From: a virus
Reading direction: 5' to 3' (one strand)
IMG/VR virus record: IMGVR_UViG_3300022687_000001
Coordinates: 1 to 37,036 of that record
DNA length: 37,036 nucleotides
Positions 14,890-37,036 of the stretch are shown in pieces (within the stretch, counting starts at the first letter, position 1; each line of letters opens with the position of its first letter). The position numbers and the translations under genes are program-made. The notes under the pieces are model-generated. The model was not told the origin of the DNA. It saw only the letters and a list, made by a program, of their open reading frames with translations, and did no database searches.

Positions 14890-14900
14890 ATACCGGATAC

Positions 14901-14933: not shown

Positions 14934-14974
14934 TGCGCGTACCGGGTGGCAATCTCCAGCGAGGTGACCTAACC

Positions 14975-21239: not shown

Positions 21240-21254
21240 TCGCCGTGATGTGAC

Positions 21255-21286
21255 GGCGAGGGGTGGCAGCGTTGCCACCCCTCGCC
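21255..21286 (+). terminator. Perfect 14-bp hairpin after the capsid gene
   Basis: GGCGAGGGGTGGCA (21255-21268) pairs exactly with TGCCACCCCTCGCC (21273-21286) around a GCGT loop. No U tract follows, so it may be a partial terminator, or an mRNA stabiliser that keeps capsid message more abundant than downstream messages. Confidence 0.65.
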
Positions 21287-21317
21287 TGATCGTCCGTAAC
21301 CCAAACAGGGAGTGAAT

Positions 21318-21509: not shown

Positions 21510-21527
21510 CCCGAAGGAGCGTGAGCG

Positions 21528-22109: not shown

Positions 22110-22110
22110 G

Positions 22111-22551
22111 ATGGCGTTCAACCTGGAGGACACGTTCACGGCGTTGGCGGCTCAGATCAAGGCCGGTATCTCGCGTGATTTCAATGTGGAGCCGTGGCCG
22201 AACTCGAAAGCAGTCCTACCGCTCATCGAGATCTGGCCCGACAGCGAGTTCATCTCGTACTTCGAGACGTTCGGTTCCGGCGGCCGCTCCGATGTGCGAG
22301 CGATCATCCGCATCTACACGACGACGGCGAACGCCAAGACCGAACTGAAACAGGTGTCCGACCTGTTGTCGACCGGGACCGGTGAAGGTTCGTCGATCAT
22401 CGACGCGATTCTCGCCGACAAGACCCTCGACGGGAACGTCGAAACGGTCAACGTGCTGAACGCCCGGGCGACGGTCGACCAGCAGTCGGGAGCGGTCATC
22501 CCCGAGCTGCCGATCGAGATCGTGTTGACCAAGACAGGAGCGCAGACCTGA
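22111..22551 (+). CDS. Tail terminator / tail-completion-like protein
   Basis: 146 aa. Alternating strands and helices (TFTALAAQIKAGI; VLPLIEIWPDSEFISYFETFG; SDVRAIIRIYTTTANAKTELKQVSDLL) fit the small alpha/beta fold of siphophage tail terminators. Its place between connector and tail-tube genes supports this. Identification is by order and pattern only. Confidence 0.5.
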   Translation: MAFNLEDTFTALAAQIKAGISRDFNVEPWPNSKAVLPLIEIWPDSEFISYFETFGSGGRSDVRAIIRIYTTTANAKTELKQVSDLLSTGTGEGSSIIDAILADKTLDGNVETVNVLNARATVDQQSGAVIPELPIEIVLTKTGAQT

Positions 22552-22769
22552 TGAAGCGATGTGTAACCCCGCATCATGTGACGTCGTTCGGTGAGATCCC
22601 GGTCGGTTCGTTGTGGGCCGACGATTCGCCGTTCCTGACCGATGAGAACGCCGGCTATTTCGTGCATGTCGAGGAGACGCCGGCCGAGGAGCCGAAGCCG
22701 CAGCCGGTCCGCAAGTTCGGCAAGAAGGCCGCCGCCAAGAAGGCCGCCGCCGAGAAGGGTGACGACTGA
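22551..22769 (+). CDS. Small protein with Lys/Ala tail, second copy of the type
   Basis: 72 aa, starting on a TGATG overlap. The first 45 residues are a small beta-type domain (CVTPHHVTSFGEIPVGSLW). The tail KFGKKAAAKKAAAEKGDD resembles the tail of the product at 21318 (KKRAAKKAAAKSDD). The shared tails suggest a common partner, perhaps DNA or a structural ring. Function unknown. Confidence 0.55.
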   Translation: MKRCVTPHHVTSFGEIPVGSLWADDSPFLTDENAGYFVHVEETPAEEPKPQPVRKFGKKAAAKKAAAEKGDD

Positions 22770-23503
22770 TGGCGATTCAGTTCTGGAAAGACCTGTCGAT
22801 CCTCGAAGGCGGGTTGGAGCTCGCCGGTCACGGCAAAAACGTGAACCTGGCGGTCGACGTGAACCCGCTCGACACGACGGCGTTGTCGACGACTGGTTGG
22901 ACGACCGTTGTCGGTGGGCTCAAGTCGGCGACGGTGGACCTGGAGTTCATGCAGGACATGGCGGCCGGTTCGGTCGACGAAACCCTGTGGGCGAACTTCG
23001 GGACCGCTGGTGTCGTCCGTTCGTTGGCGACGGCATCGGCTGATGGTTCGGTCGGGTACACGATGCAAGGTGTGTCGTTGTCGTACTCGCCACTGCAAGG
23101 CAGTGTCGGTGAGCTGGCGATGGGTTCGATCACCGGTTATGCGTCGTCGTCGCCGTTGGTGCGTGGTCGTGTGTTACATCCGTCGAATGTGTCGCGGACG
23201 TCGTCGTCTGCGGGTACCGGTCGTCAGATCGGTGCGGTGACTGCGGGTAAGAAGATGTATGCGGCGCTGCATGTGATTTCGGCGTCGGGTACGTCTCCGA
23301 CGCTCGACGTCAAAGTCCAGTCCGATGACAACGCTGGTTTCACGTCGGCGACTGACCGGATCACGTTTGCTCAGGCGTCCGATGTGGGTGCCGAGTGGGG
23401 TTCGGTCGATGGTGCGATCACGGACGATTACTGGCGTGTGTCGTACACCGTGGGTGGGACTGATCCAAGTTTCGCGTTCGCTGTGGTCGCCGGAATCCTG
23501 TGA
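22769..23503 (+). CDS. Tail-tube protein A with C-terminal extension
   Basis: 244 aa. Residues 20-125 align along their length with the 136-aa protein at 24127. Blocks in common are LDTTALSTTGW with [29 protein letters not shown] with [24 protein letters not shown] with VDEELW, and GELAMGSITG with [10 protein letters not shown]. The tube-like core is followed by about 110 residues (GRQIGAVTAGKKMYAALHVISASG onwards) that look like an added beta-sandwich domain, perhaps displayed on the tail surface. Tail-tube monomers stack into the DNA conduit. Two versions may form a mixed tube, or one may be a tail-end or decoration form. Confidence 0.65.
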   Translation: MAIQFWKDLSILEGGLELAGHGKNVNLAVDVNPLDTTALSTTGWTTVVGGLKSATVDLEFMQDMAAGSVDETLWANFGTAGVVRSLATASADGSVGYTMQGVSLSYSPLQGSVGELAMGSITGYASSSPLVRGRVLHPSNVSRTSSSAGTGRQIGAVTAGKKMYAALHVISASGTSPTLDVKVQSDDNAGFTSATDRITFAQASDVGAEWGSVDGAITDDYWRVSYTVGGTDPSFAFAVVAGIL

Positions 23504-23568
23504 CCACCATCGAGCGGGAGTTGTGCGACTGGTGCTCGCGCGTTAAACGATCTTCGCGGGAGGTTTTG

Positions 23569-23625
23569 TAGCGCCTGCCTACCGCCCAGTTCCGAGATAG
23601 GTCTTCCGGAGCGAGAGAGGCGCTA
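23569..23625 (+). promoter_or_regulatory. Inverted repeat in the HNH leader (may hide the ribosome-binding site)
   Basis: TAGCGCCT (23569-23576) and AGGCGCTA (23618-23625) are an exact 8-bp inverted repeat, with CCTA and TAGG inside it giving further pairing. The right arm overlaps GAGAGG, the only ribosome-binding-like sequence before the HNH start at 23633. The stretch 23504-23632 contains no gene. Confidence 0.4.
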
Positions 23626-23632
23626 TCAGTAC

Positions 23633-24130
23633 ATGCGCGGGAAGCTTCGGTACACCGCCCGCAGAACGAAGCGCCGTGTTACAGGTGGGCCGTGCTCCAT
23701 TGATGGATGCAACCAACCGGTTGTGGCTCGGAAGTGGTGCAGGACGCATTACGTGAGGTGGCAGCGCCATGGCTCGCCCGGCACCGCCGAGCCAAGCCCC
23801 CCGGGCCCGCAGTCGCGTGACGGGCGACGAGGGTATACCCATCGGAGCGGCTACCGGATCGTCACCATCAAGGGCCGGAAGGTGCCTGAACACAGGCACG
23901 TCATGGCGCTTCACTTGGGGCGCGATTTGCTGCCCCACGAAAACGTCCATCACATCAATGGGGTTCGGGATGACAACCGCCTCGAGAACCTTGAGTTGTG
24001 GTCAACATCTCAACCATCCGGCCAACGCGTCAGCGACAAGATCGCTTGGTGCGTTGAGTTTCTGGAGCAGGAAGCTCCACACCTAATCGTCACACCAAAC
24101 CCCTCAACCCCCAAGGAGCCTCTGACATGA
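23633..24130 (+). CDS. HNH endonuclease, homing type
   Basis: 165 aa. The N-terminus has [20 protein letters not shown], a zinc-binding module. From residue about 85 [38 protein letters not shown] is a classic HNH_3 core (EHRxVM, then VHHINGxxxDNRxENLELW). Such enzymes are free-standing homing endonucleases that spread between phages. It lies between two tail-tube genes, and its 3' end includes the AAGGAG ribosome-binding site of the next gene, as expected for an insertion that left the neighbour's signals intact. Confidence 0.85.
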
Positions 24131-24537
24131 GCGTGTACGCGTTGACCTCGCAGGTCACCACCCTGAATTCCGTTGACTATTCCGACCATTTGAAAAGTGC
24201 GACGCTTTCCGTCGATGCTGCCCAGCTCGACACGACCGACTTCGCGTCGGGTGGCTGGGTCGAGATGATCGGCGGTCTCAAGTCGGGCACCCTGTCGCTC
24301 GAGTTCATGGACGATGTCGCCGACGACGATGTCGACGAGGAGCTGTGGGACCTGCTCGGCACGGTCGTGAACTTCACGGTGAAGGCCGCGTCGGGTGCTG
24401 TGTCCACGTCGAACCCGGAGTATCAGGGCAGTGTTCTGGTCACCGGTCATTCGCTCGGTGGCGGTGTCGGTGATCTGGCGCAGAAGTCGTTGTCGTTCCC
24501 GACGTCGGGTTCGATCACGCGCGACGTCACCCCGTGA
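24127..24537 (+). CDS. Tail-tube protein B
   Basis: 136 aa from ATG 24127 with AAGGAG upstream; overlaps the HNH stop (ATGA). It is the short form of the protein at 22769, without its extension. The pattern ([68 protein letters not shown]) is that of small siphophage major tail proteins. Being the typical size and adjacent to the tape-measure region, it is the better candidate for the main tube subunit. Confidence 0.65.
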
Positions 24538-24545
24538 TCTAGTCG

Positions 24546-24756
24546 TTAGCAGCCGGCGTCGTCGAGGGCAGCGTCGATGTATTCCAACGTGTCGGCGTCG
24601 TCGTGCCGGTCGAACGACCGCCTGTAGTCCGAAGCAGTCCCGGTCGGCCTTCATTGTGTCGACGGCGCGCTTCATGGCTGGATGAATGTCGGGTTCGGAC
24701 GCCTCCAGTGTTGTGCAGTCACAGAGGGCGACGAGAGCGACGACGGCGTAACGCAT
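24546..24756 (-). pseudogene. Reverse-strand small gene remnant, probably frameshifted
   Basis: The stretch 24538-24782 has no rightward gene. On the minus strand ATG 24756 opens MRYAVVALVALCDCTTLEASEPDIHPAMKRAVDTMKADRDCFG, which then turns into an Arg-rich, shadow-like sequence. Switching frame near 24635 instead gives a sensible acidic end (RRSFDRHDDADTLEYIDAALDDAGC) to TAA at 24546. The pattern suggests one about 70-residue gene broken by a single-base change, transcribed against the late operon. It could also be a sequencing error or a chance arrangement. Confidence 0.3.
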
Positions 24757-24782
24757 GGGTTCACAGTACCGGAGGTGGTCAA

Positions 24783-25307
24783 GTGGCGACGTTCCAGTCG
24801 GTGGCGGCATTCGCCAAAGAGGTCGAACGCCTCGAACGTGACGTCAAGCGTCACCGCAAGGACATCGGCACGAAGGTTGCCGATAAGGCCCTTCCCGAGG
24901 GGTATCGGGCCGCCGCCGCCAAGCTGGGCGGCGACCCGAAGTTCTCGGGGTGGCGTGGCTGGCTCCAACTCCAAGCACGGGGCAAGGACTACGGCGCGGT
25001 CATCTTGCCGAAGAATCGGCTGGCCGCCGCCCAGTGGACAGTCGCCCAGGACGGCCGCAACGCCCACGGCGGCCCTGGTGGTGGCTTCCTTGGGCCAGCC
25101 ATCAACGCCCGGTCTGGTGCGACGAACCTGCGGTTCCGAAAGTCTGGTGGCGTCATCGTCCGCAAGCGGACGGCGAAGCGCTGGAACGGCGTCACGCAGG
25201 GCAAGGGCGTCTCTGATGATGCCAAGAAGCGGTTCGAGAAGGTGGCTGAACCTGTGGCCGAGAAGGAGTTCGGCCTGATTCTCCGCAAGCATTTCTCAGT
25301 GAACTGA
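24783..25307 (+). CDS. Tail assembly or minor tail protein, uncertain
   Basis: 174 aa from GTG 24783 with GGAGGTG about 9 bases upstream. The N-terminus is a coiled coil (FAKEVERLERDVKRHRKDI), followed by a basic, Gly-rich central part (WRGWLQLQARGKDYGAVILP, GGPGGGFLGPAIN) and a helical end. It occupies the place where siphophages normally encode tail assembly chaperones, but neither length nor sequence nor a slippery heptamer points to them. It could be an HK97 gp10-like tail-completion protein. Confidence 0.45.
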   Translation: MATFQSVAAFAKEVERLERDVKRHRKDIGTKVADKALPEGYRAAAAKLGGDPKFSGWRGWLQLQARGKDYGAVILPKNRLAAAQWTVAQDGRNAHGGPGGGFLGPAINARSGATNLRFRKSGGVIVRKRTAKRWNGVTQGKGVSDDAKKRFEKVAEPVAEKEFGLILRKHFSVN

Positions 25308-25320
25308 CCGGAGGTCACCA

Positions 25321-27255
25321 GTGGCTAACAAGATCACAACGATCTTCGATTTCAAAGATTCTGGCGGACTCAAGAAGATCAAGGCCGAGGTCAAGGAAGC
25401 TGACGGCTTGTTCGGCAAGATGAAGGCCGGTATCAAAGGTGCCACCGAGGAACTAAAGACGAACCGGACGGCGCAACTCGCCACGGGCGCGGCTGCCGTT
25501 GCAGCCGCCAAGGTTGCGATCGACGCAGCGTCAGACCTCGAGGAATCGGTCAATGCCGTCAAGGTCGTCTATCAGGACGCCGGCGACGAAGTGTTGAAGC
25601 TCGGCGACACGTCGGCCGAGTCGTTCGGTCTGTCGCAACGGGCGTTCAACGAGTTCGCGGTTCAGTTCTCTGCGTTCGCTTCGCAGATCGCTGACAACTC
25701 TGGTCGTTCGGTGGTCGAGGTTGTCGAGGAGATGACGACCCGTGTTGCCGACTTCGCGTCGGTGCACAACTTGTCGATGGAGGAGGCCGCGCAGGTCGTC
25801 CAGTCGACGATGGCCGGTGAGACTGAGGCGTTCCGTCGCTTCGGTGGTGATGTGTCGGCCGCCACGATTAAGGCGAAGGCGTATGAGGACGGGATCGCTG
25901 AGGTTGGTGAGGAGCTGACCGAGGGTCAGAAGGTGTTGGCCCGGTATTCGGCGTTCATGGAGCAGACCGGCGAGACGGCCGGTGACTTTGCGAACACGTC
26001 CGATTCGCTTGCGAATCAGCAGCGGATCATGCAGGCCAACATCGAGGACTCTGCCGCTGCGCTTGGTCAGGATCTTCTGCCGGTGGTTGCCGAGGCGGCT
26101 CAGCTTGCCAACGAGGCCGCCGACGCTTTCCGCAACTGGGATGACGCATTCCGGGATTTGTCGGGCGGCGCTGGCATTCTCGGCACCGCGTTCGATTTCG
26201 GTACGAAGCCGTTGCAGTGGATGAACTCCTACAACAACGCGTTGACGGACTTCGTCGGTTTGACTGGTGAGGCCGAGGACGCTGGGGTTGCATTCACGAG
26301 AGTCGGCACCGATATGGCTCGCGGGCAGTTCGAGGCTGCCACGGCGACCGACGAGGCCGCCGCCGCTGTTGAGGAGCACACCGACAAGGTCACTGACTTC
26401 GATCGCTGGTTGGAGCGTGCGACCGAGTCCGGTCAGAAGTACGCCGATGCTGCCAAGCGGAAGGCGGATCGCGACGAGGAGGCTGCTCGGGCTGCCGAGG
26501 AGCACAAGGCGAACCTCGACGCGCTGATCGAGTCCATCAACGAAGCGATCGGTGCAGCGTTCGATTACGAGCAGTCGAACATCGACATGGCGCGCGCGGC
26601 GATGGATTTCGCCGAGCAACAAATCGAGACGACGCGAGTCCTGAACGATTCAGAGTCCGGGGCGCGCGACAAAGAGGCTGCGCTGTACGACTTGCGTGAC
26701 GCCGAACTCAGCGCCGCTGAACAGGCGTGGGAGACGGCTCAGGCGTTCGCTGAGGAGCAGGGTGCTGCCGAGGGGTCGACCGAGGCTGCGCGGCTCCAAA
26801 AAGAAGAGTTGGAGCGCCTGGCGCAAAAGTTCCCGTACCTGCGTGACGAGATCGACCTGTTCATCGCGAAGCTGAACGCGATTCCGTCGTCGAAGACGGT
26901 GACGATTCAGCAGAACATTCGTGGTGCTGGTGTCGGTGGCACGATCGGCGGCGCGAGTTACAGCGGTGTCCGTGAGCGTGGTGGCCCGGTGTCGGCTGGT
27001 GAGATGTACCGGGTCGGCGAGGGCGGCAAGCCTGAGCTGTTGGAGTCGGACGGGAAGCACTATCTGATCCCTGGCGATAACGGCAGGGTGACGCCGGCCG
27101 ACTCGACCAGCGGTGCCGGCATGGTTGGTGGTGGGGCGACCTACAACGTCACGGTCAACGCCGGGATGGGCACCAACGGCGGCGACGTCGGCCGACAGGT
27201 CGTCGAAGCAATCCGCCGTTTCGAGCGTGCCAACGGAAGCGGGTGGCGCAAGTGA
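25321..27255 (+). CDS. Tape-measure protein
   Basis: 644 aa from GTG 25321 preceded by GGAGGTCACC. It has a long helical N-terminus, then an Ala-rich segment at about 48-65. The block ASDLEESVNAVKVVYQDAGDEVLKLG through SLANQQRIMQANIEDSAAALGQDLLPVV (about 62-258) is characteristic of phage tail tape-measure proteins (phage_tail minor/TP901-type domain). The middle 340-510 is coiled coil, and the C-terminus is Gly-rich. At about 0.15 nm per residue the tail would be near 0.1 micrometre. No lysozyme or peptidase domain is visible. Confidence 0.85.
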   Translation: MANKITTIFDFKDSGGLKKIKAEVKEADGLFGKMKAGIKGATEELKTNRTAQLATGAAAVAAAKVAIDAASDLEESVNAVKVVYQDAGDEVLKLGDTSAESFGLSQRAFNEFAVQFSAFASQIADNSGRSVVEVVEEMTTRVADFASVHNLSMEEAAQVVQSTMAGETEAFRRFGGDVSAATIKAKAYEDGIAEVGEELTEGQKVLARYSAFMEQTGETAGDFANTSDSLANQQRIMQANIEDSAAALGQDLLPVVAEAAQLANEAADAFRNWDDAFRDLSGGAGILGTAFDFGTKPLQWMNSYNNALTDFVGLTGEAEDAGVAFTRVGTDMARGQFEAATATDEAAAAVEEHTDKVTDFDRWLERATESGQKYADAAKRKADRDEEAARAAEEHKANLDALIESINEAIGAAFDYEQSNIDMARAAMDFAEQQIETTRVLNDSESGARDKEAALYDLRDAELSAAEQAWETAQAFAEEQGAAEGSTEAARLQKEELERLAQKFPYLRDEIDLFIAKLNAIPSSKTVTIQQNIRGAGVGGTIGGASYSGVRERGGPVSAGEMYRVGEGGKPELLESDGKHYLIPGDNGRVTPADSTSGAGMVGGGATYNVTVNAGMGTNGGDVGRQVVEAIRRFERANGSGWRK

Positions 27256-28523
27256 GTGTGACGGTCTTCCTCGACGCCGACGAGATCACCGCCGAGTCGT
27301 ACTCGATCTCGTGCCAGCGGGGCCGCAGCCTCGAAAGCGAAACGTTCGATGTCGGCACCGCCACGGTGACCGTGCGGAACTACAACGCGAACTTCAACCC
27401 GTACTTCTTGTCGGACACGTCGGCGCTCCTCATGGAGTCCGGCGACTTCCTACTCCAAGAGTCCGGTGACCGAATCCTGTTGGAGTTCGGGAACGGTACA
27501 GGTGAGGGCACCTACGGCGAGATCCTGACCGGTCGCAAACTGACGGTGAAGGACGGTGCCACGACGGTGTTCGTCGGGTTCGTGGAAGACTACGACTTCA
27601 CCTGGACGTCAGACATGGTCGCCGAGGCGTCGTTGATGTGTCGGGATGCGATGGCGACGATCGGTGCGACGTCGCTGCTCGAGTGGTTGCCGACCGAGGG
27701 CGAGTTGACCGGCGAGCGTGTGGCGTCACTGCTGGATCGTGACGAGGTGTCGTTCCCGTCCGGTGGCGGCGATCGCGACATCGCTGACGGTACACAGCCG
27801 CTCGCCGGCGCATGGAACACAACGGTCGATGGTGAGACCGTCGCTGTTGGTTCGGTGGTGTCGTTCGGGACGAACCCGCTCGCATACCTCCAGACAGTGA
27901 CCGAGGCCGAGTCTGGTCGTCTGTTCGTCGATCGCACCGGGACGTTGACGTTCCAAGATCGGTACGAGTCGTTCGGTGTGGCCGCGTCGGCTGACTTCGA
28001 CGATTCGGATACGAACCTGCCGTTTCATGGCATCGACGTCCGGTTCGGCACCGAGTTGCTGCATTTCAAGGTGTCGGTCGACCGTGATGGTGGGACGGTG
28101 CAGACGGCGACGAACGCCGCTCAGATCGCCGCCTATCCAACGCTCGGAGCTCGTCACCTGACGATCAGTGGTCTGCCGTATCAGTCGGACGATCACGCTG
28201 CTGGGTTGGCGACGTTCCTGCTCGATCGGTATTCGTCGATTCGGGCGGTTGTGTCGGGGTTGACGATCAACCTTCATGCGCTCGGTACGTCGGATCGTGC
28301 GACGGTCGCAGCGCTCGACATTGGTCAGGTTGTGACGTTGACATGGACGCCGCCCGGTACGACGGGTTCGGTGTTTCAGACGTTGGCGATCGAGGGTGTC
28401 GCGTACCGGTCGGATGATTCGGAGTTCGCGGCGGTCACGTTCCAGCTGTCGGACGCGTCCGATCCTGACTATTTCCAGGTCGACACCGATGCGGTGGACG
28501 GCCCGAAACTCGTCGCCCCCTGA
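27252..28523 (+). CDS. Minor tail / tail-hub-like protein
   Basis: 423 aa from GTG 27252 (GTGA overlap with the tape measure). The N-terminal part (VTVFLDADEITAESYSISCQRGRSLESETFDVGTATVTVRN) has the split beta-barrel look of distal tail and hub proteins. Residues 58-77 contain a short repeated ESGDFLLQESGDRILLE segment. The region 235-330 (ESGRLFVDRTGTLTFQDR) matches the hub fold used to bind the baseplate. Position after the tape measure is consistent. No enzymatic motif seen. Confidence 0.6.
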   Translation: MSVTVFLDADEITAESYSISCQRGRSLESETFDVGTATVTVRNYNANFNPYFLSDTSALLMESGDFLLQESGDRILLEFGNGTGEGTYGEILTGRKLTVKDGATTVFVGFVEDYDFTWTSDMVAEASLMCRDAMATIGATSLLEWLPTEGELTGERVASLLDRDEVSFPSGGGDRDIADGTQPLAGAWNTTVDGETVAVGSVVSFGTNPLAYLQTVTEAESGRLFVDRTGTLTFQDRYESFGVAASADFDDSDTNLPFHGIDVRFGTELLHFKVSVDRDGGTVQTATNAAQIAAYPTLGARHLTISGLPYQSDDHAAGLATFLLDRYSSIRAVVSGLTINLHALGTSDRATVAALDIGQVVTLTWTPPGTTGSVFQTLAIEGVAYRSDDSEFAAVTFQLSDASDPDYFQVDTDAVDGPKLVAP

Positions 28524-28535
28524 TTCGGAGGACTC

Positions 28536-29159
28536 ATGCCCGGATACAAGTCGTCGTGGACTGGGACGCTGGCGAACAGCGACATCCTCGACTATCTCCA
28601 AAAGCAGTCGGTGATGAAGTTCGCCACGTCGTCGGCGCGCGATACGGCCCTGTCGGGTGTGTTGCGTGACGGCATGATGGCGTACACCGACGATGACGGG
28701 ATGGTCTGGCTGTACTCGGCGCATGATATTGCGTCGGCGCAGTGGATCAGGTTCTCGTCGGTCTGGGAGGGTTGGTTGACCACGCCGTCGTTCTCGGCGG
28801 GTGTGACCGAGGGTGACGGGACGTTCGACGTCGTGTGTCGCTACGAGCGCGGGTCGCTGCGTATCCGTGGGCAGTTCACGCTCGGTTCGACGTCGGCGGT
28901 GACCGGTGTCCCACAGTTCGACATCTCGGCCTACCTGACTTCCACAGCGACCCATTTCTCGGGTGGTATGGCGGCGGTTCGTGACACGTCGGCGGCTCGC
29001 TGGTATACGGCGTCGTCGATTGTCGGTATCGGCGGTGACGACATCGTGATCCAGACCGATGGCGCAACGATCGACGGGTCAACCCCGTTCACGTGGGCAT
29101 CGGGCGACTTCATCTGTTGGGACATCCTCGTGACCCATCCCGATCTGGACGATCAGTGA
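28536..29159 (+). CDS. Minor tail protein, fibre-like
   Basis: 207 aa from ATG 28536 with GGAGG upstream. The KFATSSARDTALSGVLRDGMMAYTDDDGMVWLYSAHD block (residues 28-65) is a common N-terminal attachment motif of tail and fibre proteins. The remainder is beta-strand-rich and ends in a short acidic tail. Probably part of the tail tip. Confidence 0.55.
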   Translation: MPGYKSSWTGTLANSDILDYLQKQSVMKFATSSARDTALSGVLRDGMMAYTDDDGMVWLYSAHDIASAQWIRFSSVWEGWLTTPSFSAGVTEGDGTFDVVCRYERGSLRIRGQFTLGSTSAVTGVPQFDISAYLTSTATHFSGGMAAVRDTSAARWYTASSIVGIGGDDIVIQTDGATIDGSTPFTWASGDFICWDILVTHPDLDDQ

Positions 29160-29168
29160 GGTTGACCG

Positions 29169-29648
29169 ATGGCTGATACCAAGATCTCCGCACTCACCGC
29201 GTTGACGTCACTGGATGATGACGACGAGTTCGCCGCCAATGACGACTCCGCATCAGAGACAAAGCGGATCACCTGGGCGAACGTCAAGGGCTCGATCCCC
29301 GCCGAGATCATCGTCGCCTGTTCTGACGAGTCGACGGCGATCGACTCGACCGGCACGAAGGTCACGTTCCGTATGCCGTTCGCGATGACGTTGTCCGAGG
29401 TTCGTGCGTCGGTGAACTCGGCGTGTGCGACCGGGACGTTCACGGTGGACATCAATGAAGGCACCTCGATTCTGTCGACGAAACTGACGATCGACGCCAC
29501 CGAGGAAACGTCGACGACTGCGGCGGTTGCGGCGGTCATCTCGGATTCGGCGCTGGCTGATGATGCCGAGATCGCGATTGACGTGGACGACACGGGTGAT
29601 GATACGGCGACCGGGTTGAAGGTTGTGTTGATTGGGACGCGGGCGTGA
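29169..29648 (+). CDS. Tail-fibre-like protein
   Basis: 159 aa from ATG 29169. It begins with DTKISALTALTSLDDDDEFAANDDSASETKRITWANVKGS, a fibre/tail attachment motif widespread in marine and environmental phages. It then shows a beta-sandwich (FRMPFAMTLSEVRASVNSACATGTFTVDINEGTSILSTKLTI) of the kind used for tail collars or carbohydrate binding. It probably anchors the following protein to the tail tip. GTGA overlap with the next gene. Confidence 0.6.
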   Translation: MADTKISALTALTSLDDDDEFAANDDSASETKRITWANVKGSIPAEIIVACSDESTAIDSTGTKVTFRMPFAMTLSEVRASVNSACATGTFTVDINEGTSILSTKLTIDATEETSTTAAVAAVISDSALADDAEIAIDVDDTGDDTATGLKVVLIGTRA

Positions 29649-30685
29649 CGGTCTTCATCGACTCGTACCGGTTCGCGTCGGGGGGCGTGCCGACAGTCAC
29701 TCTCGCGGTGGCATCCGCGGCCAGCAGCGGTCTTGGTGCTGACGGCTTCACCCGCGGTCTTGCCGTGTCGGGCAACTACGCCTACGGCTGTACGGCACCG
29801 GGTGGCACCGGGTACCTCACAACGTTCGACATCTCGGACCCGGACAGCATCGCCCACTCAGCGAACCTGAACATCAACTCGACAGCCAACGACCCTTACG
29901 GGATCGCCATCAGTGGCTCGTCCGCTTTCGTGGTGGGCTCGTTCAGCAACAAGATGGCCCGGTTCGACCTGACGACCCCGTCAGCGCCGTCCTATGTCAC
30001 CGGGTTCACGTCGTCATCGTTCATCGACCGGCCGTATACGGTTGTCGTCGTCGGGTCGTATGCGTTCGTCCGCGCTACCGACGACAACGCGATCTCCTCA
30101 GTCGACATCTCGAGCGGCTTGTCGGCTGACACGAAGAACGTCGACGCGACGTACTTCGCCAGTTACGGTGGGATGGCGGTCATCGACTCGACGCACATCA
30201 TCGTGACGTCGACCACTGGCAATAGCGTGTCGATAGTCGATGTGTCCGACCCGGCAGCGTTGTCGGTCGTCGGTTCCGTCACCGACGCGTCCGACCTACT
30301 CAGAGCCTCGGCGGTCATCGTCGACGGCGACTACGCGTACGTGAGGTCCGGCAGAGGGTTTGCCACGCCATATGGCGACTACCTGACGGTGATTGATATC
30401 TCAACCCCATCGAGCCCGACCGTTGCCGGGTCAGTGCACGATTCGAGCGTACTCGGCGTCGCGCTGATCGGCGGTCTCGCGAAGATCGGAGACGTCGTCT
30501 ACGTCTCGTCGTCGAACGACGACAGAGTTACGGCGGTCGACGTTTCAAACCCGGCCACACCGACCGCGGTCGGCTCTATCCAGGACTCGACTGACCTGGC
30601 GTCCGTCAACGGCCTCGCCGTGGTCGACTCGACTCATCTCGTCGCCCAACGCTCGGGCGGCATGACCACTCTCGAGATCAGCTGA
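29645..30685 (+). CDS. LVIVD-repeat beta-propeller tail protein, receptor-binding candidate
   Basis: 346 aa from GTG 29645. After a short N-terminus it contains six to seven repeats of the LVIVD type, each with an xxxVSGNYAYV-like strand, a VxDVSDPAxxxVVGS-like segment and a loop; for example SIVDVSDPAALSVVGSV, TVIDISTPSSPTVAGSV and TAVDVSNPATPTAVGSI. LVIVD repeats form beta-propellers and are known as surface carbohydrate- or protein-binding modules. Being the last late gene and fused to no enzyme, it is the best candidate for the host-recognition protein. Its 3' end is overlapped by a convergent gene. Confidence 0.65.
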   Translation: MTVFIDSYRFASGGVPTVTLAVASAASSGLGADGFTRGLAVSGNYAYGCTAPGGTGYLTTFDISDPDSIAHSANLNINSTANDPYGIAISGSSAFVVGSFSNKMARFDLTTPSAPSYVTGFTSSSFIDRPYTVVVVGSYAFVRATDDNAISSVDISSGLSADTKNVDATYFASYGGMAVIDSTHIIVTSTTGNSVSIVDVSDPAALSVVGSVTDASDLLRASAVIVDGDYAYVRSGRGFATPYGDYLTVIDISTPSSPTVAGSVHDSSVLGVALIGGLAKIGDVVYVSSSNDDRVTAVDVSNPATPTAVGSIQDSTDLASVNGLAVVDSTHLVAQRSGGMTTLEIS

Positions 30686-31882
30686 GCCGACCAGCAGCAA
30701 ATCAACCGCCGCGCTGATCGCCATCACGCAACCCACCACAAGAACTAAGTTCATCACGGTCGCGTGCCTCGCGATCTCGATCGGTGCGCCGTGATACACG
30801 AGAAGGGCATGAGGGATCGTCGACGCGATCAGGGCGGCCGGCAACATCCAGCGCCTATCGCGCCGCCCCACCAGTAGGGCGACACCGGCAAGCCCGACGA
30901 CGGCCGACGTCGTCATCCATATCGACCCTTCGTTCGGCCAGAGCACCGACAGCCACTGGGCGTTCGGGTCGGTGTAGGTGCCGAACGGCTGATCGAACAT
31001 CGCCTCGGCGATCACGTCGTCGTCGGCCACCAGGTAGGCCAACCCCGACAGAGTGAACCCCGGATGGGTTGCCAGGAACCGGGCGTAGGTGGTCGCTCCC
31101 GGCCCGGCCGCCCAGTCCTGGAACGTCTCGTCGCTGTTGAGTTCGCCCTGTAGCGCGAGCCCCTCGGGTGTGGACGTCACGGTCGTATCGACGCTGGGCA
31201 TACCGTGCCGCTCGAACCAGACGAGGTGTCCCGGGTCTCGGGCAATCCGATGCGCCACGTTCGCCGTCACGTTGAACCCTTCGACATATCGATCGTTCTG
31301 CGTCGCCGCGACACCCCACAACGCCACCACAGCCACGGCGACCGCAGTAGCGCGTCGACGCTCGCGCCAGAGCAACACGCCGAGGCAGGCCGCCACAGCG
31401 ACACCGAGTACCGCATGAGCGTCGCGAACGAACACCCACCCGATGAACGCCGCAACAATGACCGACCCGGGCAACGCCCGCCAGCGGACCACCACCGCCA
31501 GCAGTAGCGCCGTCATCGAGATCGCTAGAGACTCACTCAGCATCACCCCGTCCCAGACGGTCACTCGAGGCGTCACGCCAAGAGCGAGCACGACGCCGGC
31601 GACGCCAACCCTGACGCGCCGGTCCGTGACGGTGGATGCTACAGCGGCCGCGAGCACCACGAACGCGATGGCCGAGATCGCCACCTGGAGGAACATCACC
31701 ACACCGTTCGGGAGGGTGCGAACGACTGGGTACACCCAGAGCCGCGGAGCGTCACCGACCAGGCTGATCCGCTCATAACTGGCGCTGTCGTTCACCTCGA
31801 CCGGCGACCAACCGACGATCAGTGCCAGGCGCACCGCCAAGTAGCCCGCCGCCACGACTGCCCATGTCTTGAGATCCCGCAT
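30545..31882 (-). CDS. Polytopic membrane protein, GT-C-glycosyltransferase-like moron
   Basis: 445 aa from ATG 31882, predicted to be leaderless. About ten hydrophobic segments are spread over residues 5-390. NDSASYERI in the first loop (residues about 30-38) resembles the acidic loop motif of GT-C glycosyltransferases, and MLSESLAISMTALLLA resembles their SESL-type helix. A luminal loop of about 110 residues follows the fourth hairpin. GT-C enzymes use lipid-linked sugars to glycosylate surface polymers, so this protein could alter the lysogen's envelope and block superinfection. It lies against the late operon between the tail and lysis genes with its own promoter, the definition of a moron. 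The last about 47 codons overlap the propeller gene and may be read-through. Confidence 0.6.
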   Translation of the reverse strand: MRDLKTWAVVAAGYLAVRLALIVGWSPVEVNDSASYERISLVGDAPRLWVYPVVRTLPNGVVMFLQVAISAIAFVVLAAAVASTVTDRRVRVGVAGVVLALGVTPRVTVWDGVMLSESLAISMTALLLAVVVRWRALPGSVIVAAFIGWVFVRDAHAVLGVAVAACLGVLLWRERRRATAVAVAVVALWGVAATQNDRYVEGFNVTANVAHRIARDPGHLVWFERHGMPSVDTTVTSTPEGLALQGELNSDETFQDWAAGPGATTYARFLATHPGFTLSGLAYLVADDDVIAEAMFDQPFGTYTDPNAQWLSVLWPNEGSIWMTTSAVVGLAGVALLVGRRDRRWMLPAALIASTIPHALLVYHGAPIEIARHATVMNLVLVVGCVMAISAAVDLLLVGSADLESGHAARALGDEMSRVDHGEAVDGRQVSRVLDRADRGRCGRV

Positions 31883-31889
31883 AACCCCC

Positions 31890-31918
31890 ACTATGACCAC
31901 GCACCGCGCGCGGGTCAA
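31890..31918 (-). promoter_or_regulatory. Dedicated promoter of the GT-C-like moron
   Basis: Read on the minus strand, TTGACC (31918-31913) and CATAGT (31895-31890) are separated by 17 bp. Seven bases separate the -10 from the ATG at 31882, so the transcript would start at or beside the start codon. The same 7-base spacing occurs at the Cro-like gene. Confidence 0.6.
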
Positions 31919-31938
31919 CTGATTAAGCGAGGTGCAGT

Positions 31939-32055
31939 GTGCGTCACCTTCACGCCCGTCGCCCGTTCTGGGCTGCGTTCGGGTTCACGGTCGGCTACCA
32001 GATCGTGCCCGTGTTCGTCGTGTACTGGCCGGTCGTCGGCTGGCGACTCCGCTGA
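31939..32055 (+). CDS. 38-aa membrane protein before the endolysin
   Basis: GTG 31939 with a GAGGTG upstream opens a 38-codon frame encoding a basic N-terminus (MRHLHARRPFW) and one hydrophobic helix (AAFGFTVGYQIVPVFVVYWPVVGW). AAAGGAG for the endolysin follows its stop. A second holin or pinholin-type protein, or an anti-holin, is possible. The size is below most annotation limits. Confidence 0.45.
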   Translation: MRHLHARRPFWAAFGFTVGYQIVPVFVVYWPVVGWRLR

Positions 32056-32068
32056 AAGGAGCACCCGA

Positions 32069-32845
32069 ATGCCCGTAGACGAGTCGCGCCCCACGTCGAT
32101 CCCCGGCGTCGCAACGTTCCACCCTCGCGAAGCCTGGCAGGACCCGAACCTCCCCGTCACTGGCCCGTCGCCGACGATGGAGCAATGGGACACGTTCCCG
32201 CTGCACTACACGGCGGCCGATGATCTGATCGACGGTGACCCCGGCGAACACGCCGAAGACCTCCCCGCCTACCTGCGCGCCATCCAACGCGACTACAAGC
32301 TGAACCGGGGCTACTCGGTCGGCTACGGGTTCGCGGTCGACTGGCGCGGCGGCGTGTGGGAGCTGCGCGGCTACGACATCAAGAACGCCGCCAACCGGTA
32401 CTGGAACCATCGCACCGGCCCCGTGCTGTGCCTGGTCGACGGTGCCGACCCGCTCACCGACGAAGCGCTGTGGTCCGTCCGTGCGCTCTACCGGGAAGCG
32501 AACCGGCGCACCGGCCGGACCCTCGACCTCGCAGGTCACCGCGACATCGGCGCGACCGCCTGCCCCGGTGACGGCATCTACCGCCAGATCACTGACGGGC
32601 TGGTCACCCCGCTGACCGACGCCGAACTGAACCCGACACCCGAACCACCCGAACGAGAGGACGACATGGCTCGCCCCGTCATCATCATCGACGGCTACCT
32701 CGACCAGTTCGAGCTCTACCCGATCGGCAACGTCGAACAGCGCCGCAAGGCCGGCATCCCCGACACGCAACAGCCGATCCCCGCCAAAGTCGACCCGGCC
32801 GCCGTCGAGCAACACCTCACGTACCGGCTCACACCGAAAGAGTGA
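32069..32845 (+). CDS. Endolysin, N-acetylmuramoyl-L-alanine amidase
   Basis: 258 aa from ATG 32069 with AAAGGAG 8 bases upstream. The Amidase_2/PGRP fold is shown by LHYTAAD (zinc ligand His46), GYSVGYGFAVDWRGGVWELRG (81-101) and AGHRDIGATACPG (His157, Cys165). It cleaves the amide between muramic acid and the peptide stem at lysis. The C-terminal 50 residues form a small extra domain after a Pro/Glu linker (PTPEPPEREDDMARPVIIID), perhaps a wall-binding unit. No signal peptide, so release depends on a holin. Confidence 0.85.
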   Translation: MPVDESRPTSIPGVATFHPREAWQDPNLPVTGPSPTMEQWDTFPLHYTAADDLIDGDPGEHAEDLPAYLRAIQRDYKLNRGYSVGYGFAVDWRGGVWELRGYDIKNAANRYWNHRTGPVLCLVDGADPLTDEALWSVRALYREANRRTGRTLDLAGHRDIGATACPGDGIYRQITDGLVTPLTDAELNPTPEPPEREDDMARPVIIIDGYLDQFELYPIGNVEQRRKAGIPDTQQPIPAKVDPAAVEQHLTYRLTPKE

Positions 32846-32848
32846 CCC

Positions 32849-33178
32849 ATGTTGTCGGCTGTGAATGGGTGGACGATCACCGAGTGGACCGGGGCGATCA
32901 TCGGGATCATCACCGCCACCGGACTGACGTGGCGGAAAGTGGTGGTGCCGGTGCGCGGGTTCGTGCGTGGGTTCAAAGCGTGGATGTCCCGCATCGAAGC
33001 GGCGACCCTCTGGACCGAACAGCAGATGAAACCCAACGGGGGCGCGTCGGTCGTCGACAAGGTCGACCGATTGCAACGAGACGTCGAGATGCTGCTCCGA
33101 CATGACGCCGAACGCGACCGTCACGGGATGCGTTACGGCGACGACAAGACCGACAACCAGGGAGGAACCCCCACATGA
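32849..33178 (+). CDS. Single-span protein with coiled coil (lysis cassette)
   Basis: 109 aa. A hydrophobic helix at residues 13-32 (WTGAIIGIITATGLTWRKVV) is followed by a basic region and a coiled coil (VDKVDRLQRDVEMLLRHDAE), the shape of actinophage proteins encoded next to holins (DUF2746-like). Coupled to the holin by an ATGA overlap. It may be a second lysis protein or a holin regulator. Confidence 0.55.
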   Translation: MLSAVNGWTITEWTGAIIGIITATGLTWRKVVVPVRGFVRGFKAWMSRIEAATLWTEQQMKPNGGASVVDKVDRLQRDVEMLLRHDAERDRHGMRYGDDKTDNQGGTPT

Positions 33179-33333
33179 ATGTCACCAAGTACAGCAAAGC
33201 CATCGTTGCCGTGTGTGGCGCGTTGAGTGTCGCTGTCACCGACAACGTGCTCGACGTGAACGACGGCATCACGATCGGACTCGCGTTGCTCGCCGCGCTC
33301 GGCGTGTACGCAGTCCCGAACACCGACGCCTGA
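33175..33333 (+). CDS. Holin
   Basis: 52 aa from ATG 33175 with GGAGG upstream. Two hydrophobic helices (KAIVAVCGALSVAVTDN and ITIGLALLAALGVYAVPN) are separated by an Asp-rich turn. The ending in YAVPN matches a well-known actinophage holin pattern. It makes membrane lesions that release the amidase. Confidence 0.75.
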   Translation: MNVTKYSKAIVAVCGALSVAVTDNVLDVNDGITIGLALLAALGVYAVPNTDA

Positions 33334-33553
33334 CCGACACAGTTCACCCGGTGTAGCAGCCGGGGAACCCGGAAAGCCCGAGACGATCCCCCGTCACGCT
33401 TCGACGTGTGTTTCGGCGCAGGTCATCGACCTGTCGGAGGCCCGCCCGCGAGGGAGTGGGTGTTGCACCACCGGGTTGCGCGCAGGGACTACGGCGGGGG
33501 CTGATCACCCCCGCCGCCTGCGTTCCATCGCCACACGACCAGGGAGGGACCAC
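33334..33553 (+). ncRNA. Noncoding hairpin array, candidate structured RNA
   Basis: The 220 bases between the holin and the next gene contain no open frame of note but at least four perfect hairpins in a row: CCGGG-GAA-CCCGG (33360-33372), CACG-CTTCGA-CGTG (33395-33408), CAGGTC-ATC-GACCTG (33419-33433) and CGGCGGGGG-CTGATCA-CCCCCGCCG (33492-33516). The last is enclosed by CGCAGG/CCTGCG (33481-33486 and 33517-33522). The order suggests a folded RNA or a DNA site with cruciform potential, not a single terminator. No known riboswitch or phage RNA class is recognised. Confidence 0.45.
33492..33516 (+). terminator. GC hairpin ending the lysis cassette
   Basis: CGGCGGGGG pairs with CCCCCGCCG over 9 bp around a 7-base loop, within an outer 6-bp stem. 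No U tract. It is the strongest stem in the noncoding array and probably stops or slows late transcription before the next gene, whose GGAGGGA ribosome-binding site follows. Confidence 0.55.
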
Positions 33554-33826
33554 ATGGCGAAATCATCCATCCTCGACACTGCGATCGAACAGACCCCGGC
33601 ACGACAAAACCCGGTCGGGCTCAAACTCGACCGGGTACTCGTCGCACTCACCGACTGCGACGACTTCGACCGGCTCCTCGACATGCTCAGGACGCCGGCC
33701 GACCAGTGGGGCCACCGACAGATGGCCGGCATCATCCGGCACGTCTGCGACCAGTTGGGCACCGAACACGAACAGTTGACCGATGGCGACGTATCCAGGT
33801 GGCGAGACCGTCAGGCCGACCGGTGA
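33554..33826 (+). CDS. Hypothetical helical protein (90 aa)
   Basis: ATG 33554 with GGGAGGGA upstream. Residues 20-75 are helical (KLDRVLVALTDCDDFDRLLDMLRTPADQWGHRQMAGIIRHV), with a Cys at position 33 and a charged end. It resembles small actinophage proteins that precede metallophosphoesterase genes but carries no known motif. GTGA overlap with the next gene. Confidence 0.5.
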   Translation: MAKSSILDTAIEQTPARQNPVGLKLDRVLVALTDCDDFDRLLDMLRTPADQWGHRQMAGIIRHVCDQLGTEHEQLTDGDVSRWRDRQADR

Positions 33827-35049
33827 GCGTGCTCGACGAAGCGTTGACCGCGAACAGCCCCGCACCCCGGCAGGCGTCACGCATCCACGACCACCCCAAA
33901 GGCTGGGAACCCGGCGTCACCTGGGACCCGACCAAAGCCACCGGCAGCATCACCGCCACCCTCGGCGACGAACCCACATCAGGCATCTGGGCAGAACTGA
34001 TCGCCGACTGGGGACTCGACCCCAACTATGTCGGCATCGTCGACGGCTCGGTGCAGGTTCGTGGCTGGGACGCGGCAATCGGCAACGGCGAAGTGCGTCG
34101 GATGCGCTACTACAAAGCCACCCTGACCGCCCTGTCGCACGCCCACGACCGCGCCGACGTGGACGCCCTATGCGCCGAAATCAAGCGTCGTAAGCCGGTC
34201 AAGCCGCCCACCACGACGGACACGAACCGTGCCCTGATCGTGGCCCTGTCCGACTTCCAGGTCGGCAAAGGCGAAGGTGACGGCAGCGAAGGCACCGTGC
34301 AACGAATCCTCGACAGCCTCGACGCCCTGGTCGCCCACATCAAGACGCTCCGCAAAGCCGGACGCCCGGTCGACACCGTGTATTTGTGCGGCCTCGGTGA
34401 CCTCGTCGAACAGTGCGCCGGTCACTACGCCATGCAAGCGTTCCAGGTCGACCTCGACCGACGCCAACAGATGCGCGTTGTTCGTCGGCTGCTCACAAAG
34501 TACGTCGATGCGTTGTTGCCGCTGGTTGACCGGATCGTCTGTGTAGCGGTCCCCGGCAACCACGGCGAGAACCGCAACAGCGCCGGCAAGGCGTTCACGA
34601 CATTCGAGGACAACGACGACCTGGCCGTGTTCGACGGCATCGCCGAAGCGTTCGCCGCGAACCCCGACCGGTATGAGCGGGTGTCAGTGATGACGGCCCG
34701 CACACTGTCGACCACGTTCGACGCTGCCGGCGTTGTCATCGGTCTGGCGCACATGCACCAAGGCCGCAAGGGTGGCAGCATCCAACAGCGGGTGATGAAC
34801 TGGTGGGCCGGTCATGCGCTGGGTCGTGGAGAGGTTCACGACGCCGACATTCTCGTCACCGGCCACTACCACCATCTCGTCATCGACGAGTCGTGTGGCC
34901 GAACGTGGTTCCAGTGTCCAGCTCAAGATCCCGGGTCGGCATGGTTCACGGAGGCGACCGGCCAGCATTCCCCTACGGGGTTGTTGGCGTTCTGTGTGTC
35001 CGACGAGCACTACGGCGCTCGCAAGTGGGGGGACATGGTGATCCTGTGA
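33823..35049 (+). CDS. Metallophosphoesterase (calcineurin-like)
   Basis: 408 aa from GTG 33823. The four metal-site blocks are present in order: LSDFQVG with Asp144, LGDL with Asp193, PGNHGEN (244-250), and GHYHH (347-351), with LAH at 308-310. The N-terminal 130 residues are a separate helical/beta domain including TWDPTKATGSITATLGDEP. Family members hydrolyse phosphomono- or diesters, including DNA and cyclic nucleotides. The insert between blocks 2 and 3 (QVDLDRRQQMRVVRRLLTKY) resembles that of phage members with possible DNA-repair or nucleotide-signal roles. Substrate unknown. Confidence 0.75.
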   Translation: MSVLDEALTANSPAPRQASRIHDHPKGWEPGVTWDPTKATGSITATLGDEPTSGIWAELIADWGLDPNYVGIVDGSVQVRGWDAAIGNGEVRRMRYYKATLTALSHAHDRADVDALCAEIKRRKPVKPPTTTDTNRALIVALSDFQVGKGEGDGSEGTVQRILDSLDALVAHIKTLRKAGRPVDTVYLCGLGDLVEQCAGHYAMQAFQVDLDRRQQMRVVRRLLTKYVDALLPLVDRIVCVAVPGNHGENRNSAGKAFTTFEDNDDLAVFDGIAEAFAANPDRYERVSVMTARTLSTTFDAAGVVIGLAHMHQGRKGGSIQQRVMNWWAGHALGRGEVHDADILVTGHYHHLVIDESCGRTWFQCPAQDPGSAWFTEATGQHSPTGLLAFCVSDEHYGARKWGDMVIL

Positions 35050-35204
35050 GCGGCTACGTACACGACGACACCGACCCGCTCGACCTGTGCGAGCTGCAAG
35101 CGTTCCACCGCAGCGAGGAATACGGCGTGGATGGCTGGCAGGTCGTCCTACACGTCCCGGACGAGGCGGTGGCGGCGGTGCTCGACCGATGGGGGCCGAA
35201 GTGA
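35046..35204 (+). CDS. Hypothetical protein (52 aa)
   Basis: GTG 35046, overlapping the metallophosphoesterase stop (GTGA). Acidic N-terminus (HDDTDPLDLCELQAFHRSEEYG), then a beta-type end. One Cys. No family recognised; coupled to its neighbours. Confidence 0.45.
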   Translation: MSGYVHDDTDPLDLCELQAFHRSEEYGVDGWQVVLHVPDEAVAAVLDRWGPK

Positions 35205-35377
35205 AACTCGCACCCGGCGCATACCAGATCATCACAGGGCGACGCCTGACCGCCGACCAGGCCGCCGATGGCGTGTTCCCCGACGACGCGTCGGTGGTGC
35301 TCGTCAAGTCCGAAGTCCTCGGCCGGCGTCAGGTGCGATACACGTACCTACTCGACTACGTGGAGGTCGAGACGTGA
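35201..35377 (+). CDS. Hypothetical protein (58 aa)
   Basis: GTG 35201 (GTGA overlap), with GGGGG at 35191; ATG 35189 is an alternative. Reads as a small beta-rich protein (AYQIITGRRLTADQAADGVF, then LVKSEVLGRRQVRYTYLLDYVEVE). No known motif. Confidence 0.45.
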   Translation: MKLAPGAYQIITGRRLTADQAADGVFPDDASVVLVKSEVLGRRQVRYTYLLDYVEVET

Positions 35378-35589
35378 GCACCCCAGCCCACTACATCCTC
35401 GAGCCACGCCCGCCCCGCAACATCGGCCGGCTTGTCATCGCTGCCGGCTGTGTCTACGAACTGGTGGCGTTGTGGTCGCCGCTGCCGACGATCACCGAGG
35501 TTGTCAAGTCGACGCACCGTCACCCGCGCCTCAAGGTGCTCGCCTGGATCTGGGGCGGTGTTTGGGCCGCCCATTTTTTTGAGGCGTAG
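35374..35589 (+). CDS. Small protein with hydrophobic segments (71 aa)
   Basis: GTG 35374 (GTGA overlap) to TAG 35589. Two moderately hydrophobic stretches (GRLVIAAGCVYELVALWSPL and VLAWIWGGVWAAHFF) suggest membrane association. The last codons overlap a U-tract terminator. Function unknown. Confidence 0.45.
   Translation: MSTPAHYILEPRPPRNIGRLVIAAGCVYELVALWSPLPTITEVVKSTHRHPRLKVLAWIWGGVWAAHFFEA
35553..35580 (+). terminator. Rho-independent terminator inside the last gene's 3' end
   Basis: GGGCGG (35553-35558) pairs with CCGCCC (35567-35572), followed by A and seven T residues (35574-35580). It is the only hairpin plus U-tract terminator I found. It faces rightward and lies within the final codons of the gene, before the convergent integrase gene. 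Confidence 0.65.
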
Positions 35590-35651
35590 GCGCGCCAGAA
35601 GCGAAACGGTCGTTCCGTTATTCCGTTTGTTTCGGATAGGTCGCCTACGCC
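35583..35651. terminator. Long-range inverted repeat between convergent transcripts
   Basis: GGCGTAGGCG (35583-35592) and CGCCTACGCC (35642-35651) are an exact 10-bp inverted repeat with a 49-base AT-richer loop that itself contains GAAACGG and CCGTTTG. Both the rightward transcript and int end here, so a bidirectional terminator is likely. The rest of 35590-35726 shows nothing else. Confidence 0.45.
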
Positions 35652-35726
35652 CAGACATAGCCACCACCTACCCGGTGGCGTAGATCGCAGCGCACCCCTC
35701 CCACTGGCGCTGCCGCAACGCCCCCG

Positions 35727-36860
35727 TCACTCGGCCTCGGTCGACGTGGCGGGGGCGTTCTGCGTTCTCAAAGCACCGAACCGGCGCATCGCCTCACGCG
35801 CCCGCTCGATCCCAGCGTCCGAATCATGCACGTAAATGTTCATGGTGGTCGACGCGTCGGCATGCCCAAGCAACCGCTGCACCGTAGGCACCGGCACATC
35901 GTTCGCGATCAACCACGACGCGAACCAATGCCGCAACGCGTGCGGGTTCACACCCTTCGCCCCGAGCGCCTCCCGATGCCGACCCCACAACAACGACACC
36001 CAACCGGGCCGGCGCGGTGTCTGCCCCAACGAATCGGACCGCATGTCAGGGAACACCCACGGCGAGACGATCCCGTGCCGGCGCTGCCACCGCTGCTGCT
36101 GGTCGAGGATCTCGTCGGCCTCCGCAGGAAGCACGTCGATCGTGCGCGCCCGCCGACCTTTCGTGTCTTTCACCGCCACGCCGCCTGACACCTCGACAAC
36201 CGAGTGGCGCACATGAATGACACCATCCGACCAGTCGGCCCATCGCAACCCGACAACCTCGCCGCGTCGGGTGCCGGTGAAGATCAACAGTTTGACGGCG
36301 CGCGCCCATTCCTTGTCGGTCGGGAGACGCTCGAGGACGCCGGTTGGGACGTCGGTGTCGGGTGCTTCGACGTCGTGGCGCACCATCGACGGGGGAGAGT
36401 CGAGCTCGGTGGCGATCGTGGGCAGGCCGCGCTTCTTGTATCCGAACCGGCAGACCGCCCGCAACACCCGGCGTACATGGTGGATGTTGTTCGGTGTCTG
36501 CCCGTCGTCGAGTAGATCGGACCACCAGGCGTCGAGGTGTTTGCCGTCGACCTCGGTCGCCGGCAGGTGTCCGAGTCGGGCTTTGATGTTGTGGACGTGG
36601 CGGCGGTAGGCGATCAGGGTTGACGGCGATTTCTGCCGTTCTTGGATCGCTAGCCAGTCGTCGCACAGGGCGGCGAATGATGCGGTGTAGGTCTGGCGTT
36701 CGGCGAGTCGGTCGGCGAGTTCGGTTTCGACTTTGGCGGCTTGGCGTTTGGCGGCGCGTTCACCGTTGGCGCGGAACGACTTGGATACCTGTTTGCCGGT
36801 GGTGTCGTCGTAGAGCCTGACGCGCCATCGGTCGCCGCCGAGGTGTTGGAGTGATGCCAT
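35727..36860 (-). CDS. int: Tyrosine-family integrase
   Basis: 377 aa from ATG 36860 with GAGAGG 7 bases upstream; a longer reading to 36911 lacks such a site. The N-terminus has an arm-binding-like beta segment (GDRWRVRLYDDTTGKQVSKSF) and a SAM-like core-binding domain (about 60-140). The catalytic residues are Arg198 in TGTRRGE, His307 and Arg310 in HALRH, His333 in LLGHAD and the nucleophile Tyr343 in NIYVH. All five are intact. It recombines attP with the host tRNA-Met gene and, with a directionality factor, reverses this. It lies next to attP and is transcribed away from it. Confidence 0.92.
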   Translation of the reverse strand: MASLQHLGGDRWRVRLYDDTTGKQVSKSFRANGERAAKRQAAKVETELADRLAERQTYTASFAALCDDWLAIQERQKSPSTLIAYRRHVHNIKARLGHLPATEVDGKHLDAWWSDLLDDGQTPNNIHHVRRVLRAVCRFGYKKRGLPTIATELDSPPSMVRHDVEAPDTDVPTGVLERLPTDKEWARAVKLLIFTGTRRGEVVGLRWADWSDGVIHVRHSVVEVSGGVAVKDTKGRRARTIDVLPAEADEILDQQQRWQRRHGIVSPWVFPDMRSDSLGQTPRRPGWVSLLWGRHREALGAKGVNPHALRHWFASWLIANDVPVPTVQRLLGHADASTTMNIYVHDSDAGIERAREAMRRFGALRTQNAPATSTEAE

Positions 36861-36937
36861 GCTGTACCTCTCTACGGGGAGCTTACTAGACACACGACGT
36901 GGCATCCGCACACGCTGCTAGTAGGTTACCGCAGGTA
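36861..36937. promoter_or_regulatory. Left arm of attP and int leader
   Basis: The stretch between the int start and the tRNA fragment holds the ribosome-binding site of int (GAGAGG at about 36868-36873), one CTAGAC hexamer (36886-36891; others at 46-51 and 294-299) and one copy of the 11-bp repeat. After integration this segment lies upstream of the reconstituted tRNA 5' half, so it may also have to provide the tRNA promoter. Confidence 0.45.
36897..36907 (+). repeat. 11-bp direct repeat flanking attP (copy 1), possible integrase arm site
   Basis: ACGTGGCATCC occurs at 36897-36907 and again at 157-167. In the circle the two copies lie on opposite sides of the tRNA fragment, about 30 bp before and 111 bp after it. 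Arm-type sites for tyrosine integrases are short direct repeats on both sides of the core, which fits. The role is inferred. Confidence 0.4.
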
Positions 36938-37036
36938 CGGGGCGGTAGCTCAGTGGTCAGAGCAAGGGACTCATAATCCCTTCTAGACCTGACGCATGAT
37001 GACGAACAGGGGACGGATAGCGCTGTGACCTGGGGA
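36938..37036. repeat. 99-bp exact terminal repeat, right copy
   Basis: Second copy of bases 1-99, identical at every position I compared. It lies 77 bp upstream of the integrase start codon, so in the circle the tRNA fragment sits directly beside int, the usual place for attP. Confidence 0.9.

Follow-up and report, generated by a model that had tools for sequence, protein, structure and literature searches.

Results

A lone reverse-strand gene between the tail and lysis genes

What could a single membrane-protein gene do for a phage when it is placed between the tail and lysis genes and runs against both? The question is raised by IMG/VR record IMGVR_UViG_3300022687_000001, one virus record of 37,036 bases, the whole of which was analysed and is called the window here. 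An exact direct repeat of 99 bases is present at both ends of the record (1-99 and 36938-37036), and because of this repeat the genome is most likely circularly complete, at 36,937 bp. Profile searches revealed, in order along the + strand, the early genes, then those for methyltransferase, primase-helicase, terminase, portal, protease and capsid, followed by tail, tape measure and minor tail genes, an LVIVD-repeat protein, an endolysin and an exonuclease-like gene. The DNA methyltransferase of the early region lies at 7395-8657 (N6_N4_Mtase, 3e-27). On the − strand are a tyrosine integrase (35727-36911; Pfam Phage_integrase, 1e-20; phrog_1, 1e-63) and an HTH repressor (412-897; Pfam HTH_31, 4e-5, under the cut-off), the latter divergent to a Cro-like gene on the + strand (1051-1341). 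Adjoining the integrase, the 99-base repeat holds a tRNA-like sequence, 5' half only, whose anticodon arm reads CAT, and this tRNA-derived stretch is a probable attP. Since an integrase, a repressor and an attP-like, tRNA-derived stretch in the end repeat are all present, the phage is temperate. Relatives of its terminase occur in phages that infect Mycobacterium, Gordonia, Streptomyces, Arthrobacter and Rhodococcus, and the nearest endolysins, 34-38% identical, are those of Streptomyces phages; because both belong to actinophages, the predicted host is most likely an actinobacterium.

The last gene of the tail operon encodes the LVIVD-repeat protein (29645-30685, + strand; 346 aa; Pfam LVIVD, 4e-16; phrog_22523, 5e-14), a probable beta-propeller, as the initial annotation of this locus had it. 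No relative was found in the phage collection by tblastn, and the one PHROG that it matched is of unknown function. On the other side, the amidase-type endolysin (32069-32845, + strand; phrog_1493 endolysin, 6e-16) is preceded by a 38-aa ORF read from the sequence, MRHLHARRPFWAAFGFTVGYQIVPVFVVYWPVVGWRLR (31939-32055, + strand), which is possibly a small membrane protein opening the lysis block. Only one long reverse gene, at 30545-31882 on the − strand, lies between tail and lysis genes, and its opposition to the late operon, claimed earlier, holds. We compared this junction with those of L063 (endolysin 48% identical), the Streptomyces phages BeardedLady and Janus, and the Rhodococcus phage ReT1v-2. 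The tail genes run directly into the lysis genes, with no reverse gene, in all four. Relatives of the membrane protein were found in none of 35 TerL-related viral records, many of which are short fragments. Because the four comparator junctions and the 35 TerL-related records hold no counterpart, the comparison is consistent with an inserted extra gene.

The reverse gene is a genuine coding sequence

The open frame at 30545-31918 on the − strand comprises 457 codons from TTG 31918, or 445 codons from ATG 31882, with the stop at 30545-30547. ATG 31882 is the better start, because TTG 31918 falls in a −35 hexamer. The GC content by codon position (0.70/0.49/0.80) is like that of other genes of the phage, and this pattern spans the gene from its start to about 30700. 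A codon model built from 22 genes of the phage, this one excluded, scored the frame at +0.26 bits per codon between 30686 and 31882, against −0.13 or less in the other five frames. The ORF at 30545-31882 is a genuine coding sequence, and the 445-aa protein of the initial annotation is present, with its start at ATG 31882.

At its 3' end the gene overlaps the last part of the propeller gene in antisense. Over these 141 bases (30545-30685), both GC by codon position and the codon model assigned the coding signal to the propeller gene on the + strand. Since the signal there is that of the propeller gene, the C-terminal 46 residues, encoded by the 46 codons in the antisense overlap, are probably an unselected tail arising by antisense read-through.

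A promoter-like site at the gene start resembles the immunity promoters

A consensus scan of 18,000-37,036 found one sigma-70-like site, TTGACC-17-CATAGT (31890-31918, − strand), right upstream of the reverse gene, in keeping with the earlier claim that the gene has its own promoter. As the site ends 7 nt before the ATG, a transcript from it would be leaderless. The repressor (CTGACA-18-CAGGCT-7-GTG) and Cro-like (TTGACA-18-TAATGT-7-ATG) promoters have a leaderless layout too, with the same 7 nt from −10 to start. We then scanned all 2478 ATG/GTG triplets for a −35 element with at least 5/6 matches and an NANNNT −10 element placed 5-9 nt before the start. This loose rule returned four sites, at 1051 (Cro-like), 897 (repressor), 31882 and 18194, against 6.3 in shuffled sequences, which is no enrichment. 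Three of them (1051, 897 and 31882) share a 7-nt gap and a 17-18 spacer; under a strict rule demanding these values, which was fixed after the 31882 promoter had been seen, the 3 sites compare with a mean of 0.6 in shuffles, and 3 were reached in at least 1 of 40 shuffles. The site at 18194 was taken as chance, as was a second promoter-like site at 6320-6292 on the − strand, within a + strand gene. Support for the 31882 promoter comes from its exact placement at the gene start and its likeness to the two putative immunity promoters, not from the site count.

Operators of one palindromic type, ACATTCNCNNAATGT, occupy 917-931 and 1019-1033 in the interval between the divergent repressor and Cro-like genes (897-1051), where they overlap the promoters of both. 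A pattern search gave no match to the operator near 31882; since the pattern was derived from the immunity region, this result shows just the absence of the same sequence at the reverse gene. That the gene has a promoter-like site of its own, free of the phage operator, is strongly supported by these predictions, and we infer that it would be active in the lysogen. Two marks of a moron, its own promoter lacking the repressor operator and a position extra to the conserved late operon, were thus found, by sequence prediction only.

No + strand terminator was found in the tail-lysis junction. No intrinsic terminator was found at the convergent 3' ends, where the local hairpin was no better than those in shuffles. 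Because the junction lacks a + strand terminator, late transcription probably runs through the reverse gene in antisense. Elsewhere, terminator-like hairpins in 1-18000 numbered 20 against 11.4 in shuffles, and were mostly on the − strand.

The predicted topology resembles that of GT-C enzymes

Hydropathy analysis, with transmembrane (TM) assignment made partly by hand, gave 7 strong and about 10 probable TM segments, so that the polytopic protein described earlier is strongly supported as one of roughly 10 TMs. Its N-terminus is predicted to be inside, and the inner loops are short and mostly basic. Outer loop 1 is predicted at residues 25-58 (34 aa; 31709-31810, − strand) and contains N-D32-S-A-S-Y-E37-R-I. 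A large outer loop of 124 aa (residues 195-318; 30929-31300, − strand) is predicted between TM7 and TM8. The layout is therefore a short acidic outer loop 1, a seven-TM block and a big outer loop after TM7. The loop 1 motif N-D32-S-A-S-Y-E37 is acidic, not a canonical DXD or DXE, and D32/E37 form a candidate GT-C acidic site.

GT-C enzymes have 8-13 TM helices, and one of their outer loops carries an acidic motif that is DXD-like or modified (PMC5836110). In the GT-CA type the core is made of TM1-7, and the stretch from TM1 to TM2 carries two short helices that hold a conserved Asp (PMC12041299). In its consensus model, phage GtrIV has 10 TMs, a cytoplasmic N-terminus and large outer loops at TM1-2 and TM7-8, as predicted here; experiment revised that model to 8 TMs plus a re-entrant loop (PMC3259042). 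The anatomy predicted here would match both GT-C enzymes and the GtrIV consensus topology model. GT-C proteins are not alone in having such a topology, and ten TMs with two outer loops could belong to another protein class.

Structure prediction, proposed earlier as the check on GT-C identity, did not provide a fold. An orphan AlphaFold model of the whole protein from the single sequence reached pLDDT 48. In a model of residues 1-198, of low confidence (pLDDT 57), there were seven long helices, and a single short one (45-55) separated TM1 from TM2. Fold searches with these low-confidence models returned only noise.

Sequence searches find no relative

The membrane protein had no match above cut-off in Pfam, PHROGs, NCBIfam or PDB, known GT-C families (PMT_2 and others) included. 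PF13231 had no match in the window, and matches in 11 of 14 control genomes; likewise, no GtrA or GT2 family matched anywhere in the window, and the controls did match. Phages and plasmids yielded no relatives in tblastn searches up to E = 10, and neither did IMG/VR with peptide patterns taken from different regions of the protein. Peptide patterns found none in GTDB genomes either, where exact 8-residue matches were required, so that distant chromosomal relatives could be missed. A putative link to a family of bacterial chromosomes was probed with two degenerate DNA patterns, one for W-D-x-x-[M/L/I]-L-[S/T]-E and one for D-P-x5-F-x3-G-M-P; they matched only an unrelated ParB-methyltransferase gene and relaxase genes. 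The absence of sequence matches is not decisive, because GtrC families can share less than 18% identity (PMC3688519). Of the GT-C-type motifs claimed in the initial annotation, the acidic outer loop 1 and the large outer loop after TM7 stand, and a database match to a GT-C family was not obtained.

Discussion

Comparison with known systems and rival explanations

The Gtr(type) proteins of Shigella and Salmonella phages (GtrIV, GtrIc and P22 GtrC) are, like the protein here, polytopic and borne by temperate phages. They differ in belonging to gtrABC operons, where a flippase and a GT2 enzyme are their partners, and in having Gram-negative hosts with O-antigen, whereas the gene here is a lone actinophage gene; no sequence similarity to them was detected, and the gtrA and gtrB genes that stand beside a Gtr(type) gene in phage seroconversion loci are absent from the window. 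Salmonella gtr genes lie at phage integration sites beside tRNA genes, whereas this one lies in the tail-lysis junction behind a leaderless promoter. A candidate likeness is to the actinobacterial GT-CA enzymes AftB, PimE and Pmt, which have a seven-TM core, an acidic loop 1 and helices in the interval from TM1 to TM2. These enzymes are chromosomal and belong to known families, and no sequence match links them to the phage protein. They use host-made polyprenyl-phosphate sugars (PMC12041299, PMC5882110). Actinobacteria make polyprenol phosphate mannose, and phiC31 infection of Streptomyces requires host Ppm1 and Pmt (PMC5882110).

The explanation that we favour, at just under an even chance, is that a temperate actinophage carries here a lysogenic-conversion gene (moron) for a lone GT-C-like protein that would use host polyprenyl-phosphate sugars. 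The lysogenic-conversion part of the initial annotation is partly supported, by the reverse orientation, a temperate phage, an own promoter, an insertion-like position and a predicted GT-C-like topology, but not by a GT-C fold or a family match. To work like a GT-C is plausible for this protein, and GT-C identity is that of a candidate. Against it stand the lack of any family, PDB or phage match over any cut-off and the low confidence of the AlphaFold models; a lone GT-C without partners, dependent on host lipid-linked sugars, also counts against it.

The main rival, unlikely but the most serious, is that the membrane protein is expressed in the lysogen but is no glycosyltransferase, serving for example superinfection exclusion or membrane defence. 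The lack of a glycosyltransferase family match agrees with this, and so do Butters gp31 and Sbash gp31, lysogen-expressed 4-TM proteins of actinophage prophages with a proposed membrane defence role (PMC7542560). These two and CarolAnn share with the present case that they are temperate-actinophage membrane proteins, known to be expressed or to act in lysogens (PMC7542560). Yet they are 4-TM proteins of two-gene systems at another genome position, the two gp31 proteins having a cytoplasmic partner, whereas the protein here stands alone with about 10 TMs and large outer loops; moreover, PADLOC gave no match for it.

A host-derived passenger (a transporter, polymerase or flippase gene picked up by chance, with little effect on infection) is improbable. 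It would suit a sequence orphan, and a GC content of 66% in the gene against 64% in the phage neither proves nor excludes an outside origin; the codon usage is phage-like, however, and the promoter layout is that of the immunity promoters. One C-terminal piece did give a sub-threshold match to NQR2/RnfD (8e-4; 19 bits against a cut-off of 27.7), but the match vanishes with the whole protein and looks like membrane composition. Very improbable, in our estimate, is a GT-C enzyme whose glycosylation of host proteins or lipids serves a purpose other than receptor change, such as stress or antibiotic tolerance of the lysogen, although antibiotic susceptibility in Streptomyces does change when polyprenol-phosphate-mannose synthase or the GT-C enzyme Pmt is lost (PMC5882110).

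A proposed mechanism and its meaning

If the gene is a GT-C-like lysogenic-conversion gene, it would be transcribed in the lysogen from its own promoter as a leaderless mRNA. During lytic growth its output may be kept low, because late transcription from the tail genes would pass through it in antisense. Host enzymes would supply the polyprenyl-phosphate donor from which the protein takes its sugar; dependence on host lipid-linked sugars would follow from the absence of both a GtrB-like GT2 and a GtrA flippase in the phage. The sugar would be added on the outer face, to a polymer or a protein of the envelope, and the candidate catalytic residue is D32 or E37 in loop 1. A likely consequence would be altered adsorption to the lysogen, for phages of its own kind or others. 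Such a role is reasonable because phiC31 needs host Ppm1 and Pmt, and because expression of P22 gtr lowers P22 infectivity (PMC3688519).

The further proposal of the initial annotation, that the propeller binds the polymer altered by the enzyme so that lysogens would block their own receptor, is speculation from adjacency alone. The complete scheme, in which a lone GT-C without gtrAB uses host sugars, is expressed leaderless in lysogens, is silenced in antisense during lytic growth and hides the receptor used by the propeller of this same phage, is quite doubtful.

In Gram-negative bacteria with O-antigen, phage glycosyltransferases are well known as agents of seroconversion. The receptors of actinobacterial phages are poorly known, and one case, that of phiC31, depends on the GT-C enzyme Pmt. 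The antisense arrangement would offer a simple, testable way of confining a gene to lysogeny. If the proposal is true, single-gene seroconversion in actinobacteria would give a direct handle on receptor chemistry.
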